Origin: a virus
Length of the DNA: 21,528 nucleotides
Reading direction: 5' to 3' (one strand)
Virus record (IMG/VR): IMGVR_UViG_3300040801_004473
Span: 1 to 21,528 of that record
Notes under the pieces: generated by a model
What the model saw: only the letters and a program-made list of their open reading frames with translations
Database searches by the model: none
What the model was told of the DNA's origin: nothing
Shown: positions 2,242 to 21,528 of the stretch, one piece after another
How the letters are laid out: the number at the start of each line of letters is the position of its first letter
Numbering within the stretch: the stretch's first letter is position 1
Made by a program: the position numbers and the translations under genes

Positions 2242-3222
2242 TTATTTTGATTTAATAAGAAGCCCTCTACGAACTTTGTTGATAGTTTTGCTAGTACTAA
2301 ATTTCCAGCTCTCAATAGATGCTCGTTTCTGATCAGTATGGATTTCTACTACAAGCGGTTTATCTTTGTAGTATTTGATTTGTATAAGTGTGTAGCCATA
2401 GTCATCGCGAACGAAGTAAACTTCATCAGGGTTATTAACTGCATCTTCGACTAAATCTAGGGCGTGCCATTTCTTGTTTTTGATCATAGTGCTGCGCCCT
2501 AGTTCAATCGGACGACCATTGTGATCTAATAGACGAATTGTCTTCTCTTCGTCCAAGTCATGTTTTCCCCTGTGCTTATCGAACCACTCCTCTGCTTTGG
2601 CTTGAGTGCGCTTAGTTGTCTTGGCCACTGGGGCTTTAGAATTAATACTGGCATAGGACTCTAGGCCAAAATTCTCATAACTGAGACTTGTTTCTGCAAA
2701 CTTTGGCAGATACATTTGGGCTTCGTCAAACACATAACCACTTGCTGCGCGGTTACTAGCAAAACCAGCTCCTTTCATCATTTTAAATTCATCGCCCATG
2801 AGTTCTTTGGCGTCATCTTCAGACATTAGCACTTTTCCTCCTTTAGTAGCTCTTGGAACAAGTTCACAGCGACAGTTGTAACCATTAGGTGGAGTAAATG
2901 CTCCAGCTTCTCCTGCTCTGAACAGCATTCCATCTAATGCTTCATGAGAAGGGCGCACTCGGTCATCACCCACCGTTTGGTATTCCCAGTAAGGATAATC
3001 CTCTGCTACTTCTAGGTTGCGGAGGTAGTTGGCTGTACTTTGGCCAGTAGCGCGCGCAGTCTCGTATTCTGTACGCAGGTAGTTGACATTGTAGTCATCC
3101 AGTAAAGGCGTCACAGCTTCTTTGAACTCGTCAAAGTTATCGGAGGTGCGTAGTATCTGGTTTGCTTTTCTTACCAAGTCTACATCCTTTGTCGCTGAAA
3201 AACGGTATAGATTCAGCTCCAT
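2242..3222 (-). CDS. Phage head morphogenesis protein (Mu gpF/SPP1 gp7-like) with toxin-like C-terminal domain
   Basis: 326 residues from the first ATG. The gpF core is clear: LYRFSATKD at residues 5-13, then DDRVRPSHEALDGM (86-99) and PPNGYNCRCE (111-120), the paired H and CxC motif of this minor head protein family. From about residue 200 the protein continues beyond the core. Residues 228-326 contain a WHALDLVEDAVNNPDEVY block followed by alternating strands (YTLIQIKYY, PLVVEIHT) and a basic end. This resembles the BECR-fold nuclease domains (PBECR class) found at the C-termini of MuF polymorphic toxins. The true start may be upstream. The 23 codons before this ATG, back to the portal stop, are open in the same frame and encode gpF-like sequence (DWPTPSNIDYNSPDH), with a CTG codon immediately after the portal TAA. 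The core call is firm; the toxin domain is inference. Confidence 0.85.
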   Translation of the reverse strand: MELNLYRFSATKDVDLVRKANQILRTSDNFDEFKEAVTPLLDDYNVNYLRTEYETARATGQSTANYLRNLEVAEDYPYWEYQTVGDDRVRPSHEALDGMLFRAGEAGAFTPPNGYNCRCELVPRATKGGKVLMSEDDAKELMGDEFKMMKGAGFASNRAASGYVFDEAQMYLPKFAETSLSYENFGLESYASINSKAPVAKTTKRTQAKAEEWFDKHRGKHDLDEEKTIRLLDHNGRPIELGRSTMIKNKKWHALDLVEDAVNNPDEVYFVRDDYGYTLIQIKYYKDKPLVVEIHTDQKRASIESWKFSTSKTINKVRRGLLIKSK

Positions 3223-6893: not shown

Positions 6894-7334
6894 CTAGTTG
6901 GTTAGCTCTATAGCTTTCTTGGTTAAAAAATCCATTTGGTACAACACTAGAGACTCTAGCAAACCTTCGTCTTGTTTACGGATATACTGGGTGAACTCAC
7001 CTAATACTTGGGTATATAGAGAAAGGTCAGACTCCTTGTCTAGCTGTCGAATACCTGCCATCAATTTAGATATCTGGTCGGTTTCTTTGGGTGTGACAGT
7101 GCGGTCTTCCTCTTCTGCTGCGTCGTATATAAATTGAATTTGAGCGTAGGTGTTGGCTATGATAGAACTAGGTGTTACGGTCAGTGAAGCGCGGAGTTCT
7201 TTCCATTTACCAGCTTGTGCCCAACGACTAATTTGTGTTGGACTCTTCTTTACCTGTCTGGCGATCTCCGCTTGTGTGAAGCCTCCGCGCAAATACAGAT
7301 TGCGTGCTATTTTTTCGACGTGTTTTGCTTTCAT
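6894..7334 (-). CDS. Small terminase-like HTH protein (Mu gp27-like position)
   Basis: 146 residues. A helix-turn-helix is clear at residues 17-44 (GGFTQAEIARQVKKSPTQISRWAQAGKW), followed by a long alpha-helical region. The protein resembles small terminase subunits and the HTH proteins found just before terL in Mu-like prophages of Bacteroidota. The likely job is to recognise phage DNA and load the large terminase; a regulatory role cannot be excluded from sequence. It is the first gene of the minus-strand operon and its ATG faces the divergent control region. It ends with tandem stops (TAG TAA) immediately before terL. Confidence 0.82.
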   Translation of the reverse strand: MKAKHVEKIARNLYLRGGFTQAEIARQVKKSPTQISRWAQAGKWKELRASLTVTPSSIIANTYAQIQFIYDAAEEEDRTVTPKETDQISKLMAGIRQLDKESDLSLYTQVLGEFTQYIRKQDEGLLESLVLYQMDFLTKKAIELTN

Positions 7335-11371: not shown

Positions 11372-12622
11372 ATGGCTTATCCAAGCTTCATCGTCAATAT
11401 TGAAAACGGCAACCTCAATCGTCCAGACGCCAACGTCGATAACGTAGCTGCTTTGGTAGTTTCTAGTTTCAATGGGCTAGCACCAATGGAGCCTGAGATT
11501 CTGTACAGTTTGAAACAGGCAGAAGATTTTGGATTCTCTGAAGCAAGCGACGCCGCTTCTGGCCTGTTGCATTATGAGAACATCAAAGAATTTTTTAGAG
11601 AGAATCCCAACGGAGAACTGCATGTCGTAGCCACTGCCTCTACTGTCACAGTGGATACCATGTTGGGAAACAATACTACGCCTGGTACCATAGAGCCATT
11701 TATTATAGCTCAAGGTGGACGCATCAAACAGCTGGCCATTATGGCCGACGAAGCAGACTCCAACTGGTTTGAGGATAATCTGGTCGCCAACGACTATGTG
11801 AGCAAAGCTCAAGCATTCTGTGATCGATTATCTAAAAATCATATGCCACTAGATGTCGTATTTTTGGAAGGACATGGATTCAACGCTACTCCTGCTGATG
11901 CGCTAGACTTGCGTACCAAAAACGCGTCTAATGTTGCTGTAGTTATTGGAGGAGACTACGATGTATCCAGTTTGATGACCAGTATTGATGGACAGGGCTA
12001 CGCTTCAATCGGTACCGTGCTTGGTAGTAGTACCAAGAAGGCTGTTCATGAATCAATCGCTTGGGCTAAACCAGAGAACAGTATCACTAGTGAAGTGGGT
12101 AATCGATTTTTAAAGGTACGGTACGTCTCGGATATGACTGTTGGTGACCCCTACGCAAGTAATCCAGATCTATTAGAAGTATTACATAACAAAGGGTACA
12201 TTTTTCCTCGTCGCGTTCCTTATCTATCTGGGTACTTCTGGAATCAATCCAATAACTGCGTACCAGTATCTAATGATATCGACTCCATTGAATTAATGCA
12301 AGTTATGAACAAGGCTATACGCCTTACAGGGGAAGTTATTACACCTTATTTAAATCGGAGTTATAACTTGACTTCAACAGGTCGTCTAACTGCGTTGCAG
12401 CGTCAGACGATTGTGGCTGAAATTAGAACGAAGTTAGAAACTAACATGGCGAATAATATCAGTGCAATCTCTACGATTGTAGTTGACCCAGATACAGATG
12501 ACAACAACGCGCCTTATCTATCATTAGTTGTCGATAAGACGCTGCGTGTCCGTCTGGGGCTTCAACCAAAGGGTAAAACAGAGCAAGTTATTTTTAGTGC
12601 TGGATATCAGGCTACAGCATAG
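11372..12622 (+). CDS. Phage tail sheath protein (DUF2586-like)
   Basis: 416 residues. The protein begins with the typical sheath opening (YPSFIVNIENGNLNRPDANVDNVAALVVSS) and has an inner alternating alpha/beta region with a Rossmann-like strand (NVAVVIGGDYD, residues about 187-197). Its C-terminal part resembles the sheath handshake region (FLKVRYVSDMTVGDPYASN, then GYIFPRRVPYLSGYFWNQSNNC). Late segments SIELMQVMNKAIRLTGEVITPYL and LSLVVDKTLRVRLGLQPKGKTE fit DUF2586 sheaths of Bacteroidota myoviruses. Sheath subunits form the contractile outer tube that drives DNA delivery. It is followed after 47 bp by the tail tube gene, the standard order. Confidence 0.88.
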   Translation: MAYPSFIVNIENGNLNRPDANVDNVAALVVSSFNGLAPMEPEILYSLKQAEDFGFSEASDAASGLLHYENIKEFFRENPNGELHVVATASTVTVDTMLGNNTTPGTIEPFIIAQGGRIKQLAIMADEADSNWFEDNLVANDYVSKAQAFCDRLSKNHMPLDVVFLEGHGFNATPADALDLRTKNASNVAVVIGGDYDVSSLMTSIDGQGYASIGTVLGSSTKKAVHESIAWAKPENSITSEVGNRFLKVRYVSDMTVGDPYASNPDLLEVLHNKGYIFPRRVPYLSGYFWNQSNNCVPVSNDIDSIELMQVMNKAIRLTGEVITPYLNRSYNLTSTGRLTALQRQTIVAEIRTKLETNMANNISAISTIVVDPDTDDNNAPYLSLVVDKTLRVRLGLQPKGKTEQVIFSAGYQATA

Positions 12623-12669: not shown

Positions 12670-13089
12670 ATGGCGCTTGAATTTCAAGGACGTGATTACA
12701 GTTACGCGGACATTAGTTTCTCTTTTATGGGAGCAACAGATATTGGGGGAGTCACCGCTATCAGTTACAAGATCAAACGTAATAGTGAGAATATTATGGG
12801 GGCAGGTGCAGAACCAATCGGATACACACTAGGTACCAAAGAATACGAGGGTTCTATGACGGTTACTCTTGGAACTTGGATGGAAATGTGCAAAGCTAAT
12901 GACGTAGCTACCCTGACAGACGCTCCAGCTTTTAATATAGTACTAGGGCTCAGTGATGGAACAGAAGCAATGGATACTATTGAAATAGGATATGTCCGCA
13001 TTACTGAAGATGGTTTTGATGGCAGTTCGGGAGACAGTACGCTTCCAGTCGAGCTGCCCTTCATATTTGCACGACTCAAACGAGGCTAG
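12670..13089 (+). CDS. Phage tail tube protein
   Basis: 139 residues, the right size for a contractile-tail inner tube subunit. The sequence is beta-rich: an opening YSYADISFSFMGATDIGGVTAI pair, a GYTLGTKEYEGSMTVTLG hairpin with the conserved-type TLG-x-x-x-YEGS pattern, then FNIVLGLSDGTEAMDTIEIGYVRITEDGFDGSSGD and a final LPVELPFIFARLKRG. Tube proteins of Mu (gpM) and Bacteroidota myoviruses share this layout. Subunits stack as hexameric rings around the tape measure protein, inside the sheath. The gene is preceded by a very A-rich leader (AATTTAAAAAAAATAGGT). Confidence 0.85.
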   Translation: MALEFQGRDYSYADISFSFMGATDIGGVTAISYKIKRNSENIMGAGAEPIGYTLGTKEYEGSMTVTLGTWMEMCKANDVATLTDAPAFNIVLGLSDGTEAMDTIEIGYVRITEDGFDGSSGDSTLPVELPFIFARLKRG

Positions 13090-13152: not shown

Positions 13153-13587
13153 ATGGACAATCAATATACGGCGGATGAACGCCAACTGGAGGAGCTAGAA
13201 CTTTCTAAGGAGCAGCTCAAAGCATGGGGAGATAGATACAGTAAATACACTCTATCCGAAGAACAAGTGCAGCAACTGAAAAGTCAGCACGGAGCGGGTA
13301 AAATAATTGTAGTGACTGTGTGCAATCAAAAGGTCTATTTTCTTGATCCTAATCATTCCAAGAACTACTTTCATACGGCCAAACGTGTGTTGAGGCTTCA
13401 ACAAATGAAAGATATGGCAGGGGCAGGTGAAGTCATTTTTAACGAGTGCTATCTTGGCGGCATCGGTGTCAACAGTATAGACGAAAAAATTAATGAAGTC
13501 GACCGAAATACTCCTTTGTATTTTAGCCTTTGCGTTGCGCTCAATAATCTTATGGAGTTGCATTTGGGCTCTTTTACGACCGCGTAG
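13153..13587 (+). CDS. Tail assembly chaperone, short form (gpE-like), with -1 frameshift site
   Basis: 144 residues when read in zero frame, ending MELHLGSFTTA. It is mostly helical with a charged N-terminus (RQLEELELSKEQLKAWGDRY) and a central strand pair (KIIVVTVCNQKVYFLDPN). It does not resemble a capsid or baseplate protein, and it lies between the tail tube and the DUF6046 gene, where myoviruses keep their tail assembly chaperones. The decisive evidence is the heptamer T_TTG_GGC at 13563-13569, a canonical X_XXY_YYZ slippery site in the zero frame. It lies 15 nt before the zero-frame stop and switches into a well-formed coding frame. In P2, Mu and lambda this arrangement makes a short and a long chaperone that wrap the tape measure protein before tube polymerisation. 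Here the tape measure gene is not adjacent. Confidence 0.8.
   Translation: MDNQYTADERQLEELELSKEQLKAWGDRYSKYTLSEEQVQQLKSQHGAGKIIVVTVCNQKVYFLDPNHSKNYFHTAKRVLRLQQMKDMAGAGEVIFNECYLGGIGVNSIDEKINEVDRNTPLYFSLCVALNNLMELHLGSFTTA
13563..13569 (+). promoter_or_regulatory. Slippery heptamer T_TTG_GGC for -1 programmed ribosomal frameshifting
   Basis: In zero frame the codons are CAT TTG GGC; sliding back one base gives TTT GGG, a full X_XXY_YYZ re-pairing. An imperfect hairpin follows directly, with core TACG (13575-13578), loop ACCG and CGTA (13583-13586), flanked by T-G and T-A pairs. A perfect 11-bp inverted repeat lies further on (13603-13613 with 13645-13655). Either could stimulate slippage. Confidence 0.72.
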
Positions 13588-13769
13588 GAAAGCTCTTAGA
13601 ACAGCATCCATCCATCACGAATTCAAAATGGGACATGTTTCGGAGGATGGATGCTTGTATTTTTTCCTACGCAAAAATAGATCCCGCAACACTATCGCCA
13701 GAGGAGTACTTCAGATTTTTTAGGTACATCGAATATACCCGAAAAGAAGAACGTAAAAACAGCACGTAA
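13569..13769 (+). CDS. Frameshift extension of the tail assembly chaperone (gpE'-like), read in the -1 frame
   Basis: The -1 frame is open from 13548 (after a TAA at 13545) to a TAA at 13767-13769 and has no ATG start before the overlap, so it can only be made by slippage or as a cryptic product. From the slip point it encodes 66 residues beginning LFYDRVGKLLEQHP, with a plausible compact helical domain (KWDMFRRMDACIF, LSPEEYFRFFRYIEY) and a basic end (TRKEERKNST). Slippage at 13563-13569 would give a 205-residue fusion (139 + 66). The stop lies one base before the ATG of the DUF6046 gene, which leaves no room for another gene and supports real coding here. The competing +1-frame reading looks non-protein-like (strings of Leu/Arg/Ile without structure). 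Confidence 0.75.
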   Translation, partial: LFYDRVGKLLEQHPSITNSKWDMFRRMDACIFSYAKIDPATLSPEEYFRFFRYIEYTRKEERKNST

Positions 13770-13770
13770 G

Positions 13771-14418
13771 ATGGGAGCAGATTTCAAAATTGATTTAGCA
13801 CAAGCATATGCCAACACATTCGGTGTACGTCGACAGATATTTGTTCCAGAGCCAATTGAAAGCAACGAAAGCTCAAATGGCTTCAAAAAAGGAGAAGCAC
13901 CTCAAAATAAGGTAGTTAAATTTGATTCACTTCCTAAGTTGAAATTTGACGATTCTTCTGTAAAGAGCAGTCTGGGAACCTTAGTACTATCGCCTATTAC
14001 CTTCAAAGGAGGGTCGTACAAAGAGCGACAAGAGGATGGACGAATTATCAATAGTACCTACAGCGAGTTACAACTCACACCCACTGCAACTTTGGATGTA
14101 ACATTTAAGAAAAGAATTGTAGAAACACCTAGATACGGGGGGAATGGCTCTTTTGATGAATTAACGGGAACCGAAGACCCAAGCGTTGTTATTAGAGGAT
14201 TTCTTATAGGAGAAGACTTGAAACGGCCAGAGTCTCAAATTAGAGACCTAGTTAATCTAGAGCAAGTACCACACGCTATACAGGTGGTTTGTGATTATCT
14301 AGGTTGGCTCAATATCCACTATTTGGTTGTCAAAGAAGTGAAGTTTCCTATGTTGAAAGGGCAACCGTCGACACAACCTTTTGAGATGCTTTGTAAAGCA
14401 AGTATTCCTGATAATTAA
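13771..14418 (+). CDS. DUF6046-like phage tail protein
   Basis: 215 residues. The conserved region PTATLDVTFKKRIVETPRYGGNGSF, followed by a SVVIRGFLIGEDLKRPESQIRDL segment and a C-terminal HYLVVKEVKFPMLKGQPSTQPFEMLCKASI block, matches the pattern I associate with DUF6046. That family occurs in Mu-like phages of Bacteroidota between the tape measure and LysM/gpD genes. A baseplate or tail-end role is likely by position, comparable to the Mu gp43 slot, but has not been shown for the family as far as I can state. It begins one base after the stop of the frameshift extension and ends 5 bp before the next ATG, so translation is probably coupled. Confidence 0.72.
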   Translation: MGADFKIDLAQAYANTFGVRRQIFVPEPIESNESSNGFKKGEAPQNKVVKFDSLPKLKFDDSSVKSSLGTLVLSPITFKGGSYKERQEDGRIINSTYSELQLTPTATLDVTFKKRIVETPRYGGNGSFDELTGTEDPSVVIRGFLIGEDLKRPESQIRDLVNLEQVPHAIQVVCDYLGWLNIHYLVVKEVKFPMLKGQPSTQPFEMLCKASIPDN

Positions 14419-20260: not shown

Positions 20261-20268
20261 TTAGTTTT
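20222..20268. repeat. Tandem 23-bp direct repeat at the phage/host junction, candidate Mu-like right end
   Basis: Two copies of A8-TCTACATTT-R-GTTTT lie at 20222-20244 and 20246-20268, with a 24-bp period and one mismatch (G in the first, A in the second). The second copy covers the stop codon of the host TPR gene. A third, weaker element with the same A8 start lies at 20165-20185. Read inward from the host, each copy contains TGTAGATTTTTTTT, beginning with the TG typical of transposable-phage ends. Confidence 0.6.
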
Positions 20269-21528
20269 GCGGCTTTAAATACGTGTTCGAGCCTTCATCT
20301 CCGCCTTTTTCTAGCGCCAGTGTGGTTTGCTCCAACACCACCGTCCAACGCGCTGTGGCCACTGCCGCCTGGGCAAACGCTTCGTGCAAGTCTGCTTGGG
20401 GCGCCTCCAGCCCTTGTAAAGCCCGTTCAAAGAACGGATAAGCAATGGTCCATTCTTCTTTCATGCTGAGCGTTTGGGCATAATGGAGTTGGTAAAGGGC
20501 ATTTTCGGGGCGCTCTACGGCCAGCAAGCCTTGTAATTCTTCTGCTAAAACAGCAGCATCTTGCCCCTGCTCTTTTAGGAGGGCTTTGATTTCGGGGCTG
20601 TTGACCCATTCGAGTTGCAATTGGCAACCCAGTTCACTAAAACCGTAGGCGTTTCCTTGCTCCACCTCTTGCCAAGCCGCCAATACTCCTTTAGAACGGT
20701 AGTACAACAAGGCTCGATGGGCATACAACGCAGGCTCCATAGGTGCCTCTTCTAATGCCTCTGTCAAATAAGCCACCGCTTGCAAGGGCTGTATCTCTGT
20801 CAAAACGGCTCCTAAAGCAGCAGTGATGCTGGCATTCTTTACGTCAGAATGGTACAACGGCTCTAGCAAATCCAAAATAGACGCTTCGGGCGTTTCGTAC
20901 AGCGCCAAATGGGGCAATTGCATCAGGCTTGGTTCAATTTGGTTGGTTAGTAGCCAACACATCAACAACAATTCTTCTACATCGCGCTCATTTTCTTCCC
21001 ACAAAGACAAGGGCAGCGTTTTGGCTTTTTGTAAAAGGGGCAACGCTTGTGCAGGCTGCTGCTGTTCTAATAAAAACTGCGCGTATTCTTGCAAAAAAGC
21101 ACGATCCGCTTCAAAATTCACTTCATACGCTCGGTACCACTGATCCAGTGCCCCGTTGGCAGCCGCCAATGCCGCAGCGTCGACCGTTTCAGCCGATAGG
21201 AGCGTTTGCTTTTGCTCGACCAATAGATCCAATTGGTAATCCATTGCCGCTTGGTAGGGCGCTAGTTGCAAACAGGCACTGAGCGCCTCGTCGCGCGCCG
21301 TTAAATTACCGAGTTGGGCATGCGTTAGGGCCAAACCATAGGCCGCTTCTGGGCGCTCGGGTACTTGCGTCAAGGCACGTTGATAGGTTTGCAGCGCCTC
21401 TTGGGCATCGCCTTGTTCTAGGTAGCTTTGCGCTAGACCCACTTGCACCTCATAGTGGTCGGGCTGCACCTGCAAAATGGCCTCGTAGAGCAACGCTGCA
21501 CTGACAAACTGCTCGGCATAACTCAAAT
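20261..21528 (-). CDS. Host TPR-repeat protein (partial, N-terminus outside the window)
   Basis: 421 residues are visible, open to the window edge; the first in-window candidate start is a TTG at the very edge, so the true N-terminus lies outside. The sequence is a series of tetratricopeptide repeats: A-x-x-Y-x-x-x-L-x-x-x-P patterns such as ALLYEAILQVQPDHYEVQVGLAQSYLEQGDAQEAL, TYQRALTQVPERPEAAYGLALTHAQLGN and a later LALYETPEASILDLLEPLYHSD. TPR proteins are protein-interaction scaffolds; no partner can be named. The coding sequence is richer in G+C and uses different codons from the phage genes, so it is probably host chromosome. Its stop (TAA at 20261-20263) falls in the junction repeat, so the last few residues (PQN) may come from an insertion event or be native. 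Confidence 0.85.
   Translation of the reverse strand, partial: LSYAEQFVSAALLYEAILQVQPDHYEVQVGLAQSYLEQGDAQEALQTYQRALTQVPERPEAAYGLALTHAQLGNLTARDEALSACLQLAPYQAAMDYQLDLLVEQKQTLLSAETVDAAALAAANGALDQWYRAYEVNFEADRAFLQEYAQFLLEQQQPAQALPLLQKAKTLPLSLWEENERDVEELLLMCWLLTNQIEPSLMQLPHLALYETPEASILDLLEPLYHSDVKNASITAALGAVLTEIQPLQAVAYLTEALEEAPMEPALYAHRALLYYRSKGVLAAWQEVEQGNAYGFSELGCQLQLEWVNSPEIKALLKEQGQDAAVLAEELQGLLAVERPENALYQLHYAQTLSMKEEWTIAYPFFERALQGLEAPQADLHEAFAQAAVATARWTVVLEQTTLALEKGGDEGSNTYLKPQN

Follow-up and report, generated by a model that had tools for sequence, protein, structure and literature searches.

A conserved -1 frame extension of the tail assembly chaperone gene in Mu-like phages of Bacteroidota and its probable expression by frameshifting

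Organization of the tail gene locus

The window analyzed in this study is an IMG/VR record of 21,528 bases, taken at its full length, from a Mu-like phage whose portal, head, and terminase genes are all of the Mu type. Running leftward from position 7334 on the minus strand are the genes for the small terminase, the large terminase, Mu gp36, the Mu portal, Mu F, and the tape measure protein. The plus strand carries, in order, a protease, head genes, the tail sheath, the tail tube, a small gene and its extension, a DUF6046 gene, the hub, and more baseplate genes (Table 1). No transposase was seen in the 21.5-kb record, which may be a fragment. The baseplate genes are followed by a DNA methylase gene and then by a gene for a TPR-repeat protein at the right end (20261-21526, minus strand). 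The latter probably belongs to the host, which may put the prophage end between about 19950 and 20260. We also noted that the Mu F-like head protein (2242-3222, minus strand) has a C-terminal PBECR2 nuclease-like domain (E=3.6e-5), and the product is thus a head morphogenesis protein fused to a toxin-like nuclease domain.

Table 1. Genes and sequence features of the window discussed in the text
Feature	Position	Strand	Evidence
Tail tape measure protein, 634 aa	328..2232	-	phrog_1272 E=4e-12
Large terminase		-	phrog_38 E=1.9e-58
Tail sheath (DUF2586)	11372..12622	+	Pfam PF10758 E=1.2e-20
Tail tube protein	12670..13089	+	phrog_4579 tail protein E=1.4e-10; weak Phage_tube_2 match (Pfam)
Zero-frame tail assembly chaperone (G-like), 144 aa	13153..13587	+	ORF; phrog_19076; 3FGX profile match; fold match
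Overlap, both frames open	13548..13587	+	Sequence; 40 nt
Candidate slippery heptamer T_TTG_GGC	13563..13569	+	In register with the zero frame; end of the stop codon 25 nt further on; H-L-G-L-F-Y at the junction
T-like extension in the -1 frame (66 residues and a stop codon)	13569..13769	+	Profile, purifying selection, AlphaFold2
Possible alternative slip point T_TTT (before ACG)	13572..13575	+	Codon comparison of window, L013, and L070
Possible stem immediately 3' of the slip site (weak for the window by itself)	13572..13589	+	RNA fold
DUF6046 baseplate hub protein, first gene 3' of the extension	13771..14418	+	Pfam PF19512 E=1.4e-19
Hub, after DUF6046		+	phrog_4930 E=1.5e-69

The small gene reads from ATG to TAG and stands just after the sheath and tube genes, an order that matches four annotated relatives. 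The initial annotation had called its product a tail assembly chaperone, and this assignment is supported by position, profile match, and predicted fold. A profile of the family matched 3FGX (E=1.2e-6), the structure of Rbstp2171, which has been called a phage tail assembly chaperone (PMC9603447). The structure models were built from alignments without rows from phage-record loci. VIA-align placed the chaperone model (pLDDT 87.6) on 3FGX with a Z of 7.0 over 91 residues and on 2OB9 (HK97) with a Z of 3.0 over 75 residues, at 13 to 15% identity over the aligned parts. Since a VIA-align Z below 8 can reflect merely a common arrangement, the sequence match and gene order carry most weight for the assignment. 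A Foldseek search with the same model returned 2OB9 as its top row, a weak match (E=0.39). Compared with HK97 gp13 (2OB9) and Rbstp2171, the window chaperone has an extra N-terminal helix. None of the 56 family members matched a chaperone family in Pfam. The window protein belongs to phrog_19076 (E=1.2e-5), as do 53 of the 56 members by their matches, and the assignment therefore gives a function to a group listed until now as "unknown function."

A TAG at 13545-13547 bounds the -1 frame on its 5' side. From 13548 on, overlapping the end of the chaperone gene, this frame stays open until a TAA at 13767-13769, and a single base separates the latter stop from the DUF6046 start. The reading proposed from the sequence was that ribosomes slip by -1 at TTTGGGC, within the overlap and ahead of the zero-frame end at 13587, to give a fusion of 205 residues (139 + 66) whose frame closes one base before the next gene. 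Each of these positions and lengths proved correct. The extension had also been said to have no start of its own, and this holds upstream of its conserved core; the first in-frame ATG (13635) would yield only 44 aa, with the first third of the extension lost. AlphaFold2 modeled the extension as a three-helix fold (pLDDT 90.2), for which no convincing match was found in the PDB (best E=4.7). The extension has no family in either Pfam or PHROGs.

Relatives of the window and candidate shift sites

Direct queries with the window chaperone or sheath against viral contigs, and with the chaperone against a phage collection, returned nothing useful. Relatives were instead reached by alignment of the hub, which gave 80 loci from bacterial genomes and 80 viral loci; where a bacterial record found in this way carries a taxon name, it is from Bacteroidota. 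A profile of the extension was then built from fF4, pippi8-1, Peternella_1, and FPSV-S27, with the window left out. Run against 13,014 frames, this profile recovered the extension of the window with an E of 1.1e-5 and, when iterated, still without the window, with an E of 5e-10. The iterated profile located the extension at 149 loci. Some of these rows are copies of the window or fF4, and the non-redundant set numbers 131 loci, drawn from isolates, MAGs, and viral contigs; the extension loci form 95 clusters at 70% identity and 39 at 50%. The family of chaperone plus extension is therefore widespread in phages of Bacteroidota. Six full-length relatives (L018, L113, L115, L117, and Capnocytophaga L020 and L023) have a matching hub, and these profiles picked up neither a chaperone nor an extension in them; an unrelated chaperone may be in use there.

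The nearest relative found is a prophage of Aureispira sp. CCB-QB1 (L013/L093), with a hub 59%, a chaperone 51%, and an extension 58 to 59% identical to those of the window. The four phages used for the profile are Winoviridae, which share with the window the order sheath-tube-chaperone-extension and, in fF4, the overall layout, at 26 to 30% identity in the sheath and 30 to 36% in the hub. Their heptamers differ from that of the window (GGGAAAG in fF4; AAAAAAG), and in their records the extension is unannotated or entered as a short orphan ORF.

TTTGGGC is the sole in-frame XXXYYYZ sequence within the overlap of the window. The other genes of the window contain such heptamers at 0.58% per codon, which corresponds to a chance of about 7% in an overlap of this size, so that the heptamer taken alone is weak evidence; it is the conservation of the extension in relatives that lifts the case above chance. 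The heptamer had been described as canonical. It does have the XXXYYYZ form in the correct register, but it has G in the Y positions, where the strict -1 consensus allows only A or U (as quoted in PMC10885494). The expectation that it would be invariant among homologs did not hold: the exact TTTGGGC as a near-stop site is private to the window, and relatives have other shift sites at nearby positions. In the Aureispira prophage the site is A_AAT_TTT, two codons further on and 19 nt before the end of the stop codon, compared with 25 nt in the window. RNA structure downstream of the window's site was not significant (z of -1.1 for the fold of 13570-13650, and -0.56). The specific heptamer is thus the least secure part of the frameshift reading, and we consider a slip at TTTGGGC likely rather than assured.

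A genuine -1 shift could also occur two to three codons downstream, at T_TTT, where tRNA-Phe would re-pair perfectly. The resulting fusion would have the junction H-L-G-S-F-Y and would differ by one residue. Apart from the departure of Y=G heptamers from the strict consensus, this placement draws on the relatives, as L013 has its A_AAT_TTT at exactly that codon pair, L070 and L083 carry G_GGT_TTT, and a T_TTT_ACR a few codons before the stop is common to the window, L013, and L070. The shared TTT-ACR may, however, simply reflect conserved residues F-T. Moreover, the preceding codon in the window is TCT, and tRNA-Ser in the P site would fail to re-pair on CTC; the overlap also offers no XXXYYYZ other than TTTGGGC. 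We regard T_TTT as a rival but less likely slip point, and TTTGGGC is retained as the candidate in what follows.

A GGAG at 13554-13557, which lies 5 bases ahead of the heptamer, looks like a Shine-Dalgarno stimulator. Such pairing acts as a stimulator in enterobacterial cases, and Bacteroidota ribosomes are thought to use Shine-Dalgarno pairing little. It is doubtful that a site of the GGAG type acts in Bacteroidota.

Across the family, in-frame heptamers occur at 5.0% per codon in the overlap and 0.75% upstream, a 6.6-fold higher density, and mostly lie 10 to 22 nt before the end of the stop codon. The dominant forms are A_AAA_AAG, A_AAA_AAA, A_AAA_AAC, and G_GGA_AAG. RNA just 3' of the site folds better than shuffled sequences (family mean z of -1.34 near the stop and 0.0 at +60). 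Some XXXYYYZ was present in the overlap at 85 of the 131 non-redundant loci. About 50 loci, about a third of the family, have none, which indicates that the shift signal is not uniform. Twelve distinct loci of this kind end the chaperone gene with CTG/TTG-GTA-AAC-TTA-TAR and lack any near-stop XXXYYYZ. In these genes 7% of Leu codons are TTA and 49% of Asn codons are AAC. The fixation of codons far beyond their usage suggests a previously undescribed -1 shift site, G_GTA_AAC or A_AAC, and our literature search found no precedent for GGTAAAC as a shift motif. Relatives with this ending include L077 (620-967), L082 (196-543), L084 to L090, and L068, many from Chitinophagaceae-type hosts. Other near-stop sites in loci without XXXYYYZ are G_GAA_AAG (12 loci), G_GGG_GAR (8 loci), and G_GAG_GAA (4 loci); like the preceding one, these are putative shift sites that we infer from conservation. 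GGGGGAA has a precedent as a proposed shift motif, derived from annotation data of phages (PMC10885494).

Tentatively, these observations could be combined in a picture in which the chaperone frameshift is ancient and conserved in Mu-like phages of Bacteroidota and its signal turns over fast, taking in non-XXXYYYZ sites (CTG-GTA-AAC-TTA-stop, G_GAA_AAG, and G_GGG_GAR), with the slip in the window taking place at an unusual heptamer with G in the Y positions or on U_UUU through a single tRNA. Within a single phylum, the family offers a diverse set of more than 100 natural shift sites, which could be used to test the requirements for bacterial -1 frameshifting outside Enterobacteria.

Reading frame and coding status of the extension

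The frame of the extension relative to the chaperone gene was assigned at each locus as a choice of -1 or +1, the longer upstream ORF being taken, and in-frame fusions were tested separately. The extension lay in the -1 frame of an overlapping chaperone ORF at all 149 loci, and at none of them were chaperone and extension joined in one ORF. The overlapping zero-frame ORF was the best match of the chaperone profile in 145 of 145 cases. These results support the programmed -1 frameshift proposed in the initial annotation, which had named separately started genes or a single continuous frame in homologs as evidence to the contrary; neither was seen.

Substitutions in the -1 frame bear on whether it is translated, and synonymous-site conservation in this frame had been suggested as a check. 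Across 40 independent pairs, differences by codon position numbered 535/357/1067, and pN/pS ranged from 0.03 to 0.68, below 0.7 in every pair. For the window and the Aureispira prophage, whose extensions are 59% identical, it was 0.28. The -1 frame is under purifying selection, and this pattern of conservation indicates that the extension is real coding sequence. The frame arrangement and its conservation, this selection, the chaperone fold, and the tail-gene neighborhood are all direct results of the computation.

The same comparison bears on whether the extension might be a separate small gene, translated from the internal ATG at 13635 or through termination-reinitiation. Besides that ATG in the window, short ORFs have been annotated at this place in relatives: a 144-nt CDS after the chaperone gene in fF4 and a 129-nt CDS in pippi8-1. 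Against this, 114 of 146 loci have no ATG, GTG, or TTG before the conserved core, conserved coding starts upstream of the internal ATGs, and the relative frame is always -1, unlike that of independent genes. The separate-gene reading was rejected on the 149-locus comparison, and taken together the frame survey, start-codon counts, and pN/pS make it very unlikely. They also exclude a pseudogene, mutation, or sequencing error that divided one gene between two frames, a reading suggested only by the split itself and likewise rejected on the 149 loci, as the same -1 arrangement recurs in 131 non-redundant loci with constraint on both frames and no single-frame version.

The short ORFs of fF4 (MN850656, 23780-23923; QHJ72924.1) and pippi8-1 (gp39; L003, 6119-6247) are annotated as short "hypothetical proteins." Each is the C-terminal portion of the -1 extension, for which gene calling had used an internal start codon.

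Proposed mechanism and comparison with known systems

We conclude that the chaperone gene very probably makes a second, longer protein by a -1 slip close to its stop, most likely at T_TTG_GGC. In the scheme we infer, which covers the shift itself, its efficiency, its exact site, and the binding partners, a minority of ribosomes would slip back one base at or near this heptamer and continue in the -1 frame, producing the fusion alongside the 144-residue chaperone. On the model of lambda gpG/gpGT (PMC5009743), both products would bind and coat the tape measure protein through their common chaperone part, and the rare fusion would draw in tube protein through its three-helix extension and so allow tube polymerization on the tape measure. 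The proportion in which the two products are made would be expected to matter.

The likeness to lambda gpG/gpGT (PMC5009743) extends to a chaperone in the tail operon, a -1 shift near its 3' end, a shifted C-terminal extension, and a minor fusion product. Unlike lambda, the window has a different slip sequence, a contractile tail, and a tape measure gene that lies on the other strand at a distance of about 11 kb, and its chaperone matches no lambda Pfam or PHROG family. The arrangement also resembles P2 E/E' and Mu, which likewise have myovirus tail chaperones with a recoded extension. P2 E/E' is a tail chaperone frameshift. Mu is reported to use -2 frameshifting (PMC5009743), whereas the window family is -1 throughout.

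The mechanism is thus of the known lambda G/GT kind, and the family is apparently undescribed. Our literature search found no published description of a chaperone frameshift in Mu-like phages of Bacteroidota; the paper combining "Winoviridae" and "frameshift" concerns spanins, and the paper naming Winoviridae makes no mention of a chaperone. What is new is the family, its unannotated extension, the putative non-standard shift sites in part of the family, and the opposite-strand tape measure 11 kb away. The companion coding region uncovered here is absent from PHROGs and Pfam and has been omitted from published genomes or entered as a short orphan ORF.

Chaperone genes of the lambda G/GT kind usually have the tape measure gene directly 3' of them. 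In the window, the gene that comes next is DUF6046, and the tape measure gene is instead found on the minus strand, about 11 kb from the chaperone and its extension (13153-13769, plus strand), a separation that the initial annotation had missed. Both layouts occur in the family, as a long ORF follows downstream at 102 loci (close by at 100) and is absent at 47. Roughly 40 loci have no tape-measure-sized gene after the extension, including the window, fF4, Aureispira, and Flavobacterium aquicola (L058), and at these loci the chaperone and tape measure are probably split between the two strands. Such a layout raises the question of how the amounts of the two proteins are matched without one shared message. 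The frameshift is kept in the split-layout phages and so does not depend on having the tape measure in the same message. Where it was traced in such loci, the tape measure sits on the opposite strand: fF4 has the same two-strand layout as the window, its tape measure being encoded on the minus strand, and in the Aureispira prophage the opposite-strand tape measure is 53% identical to that of the window.
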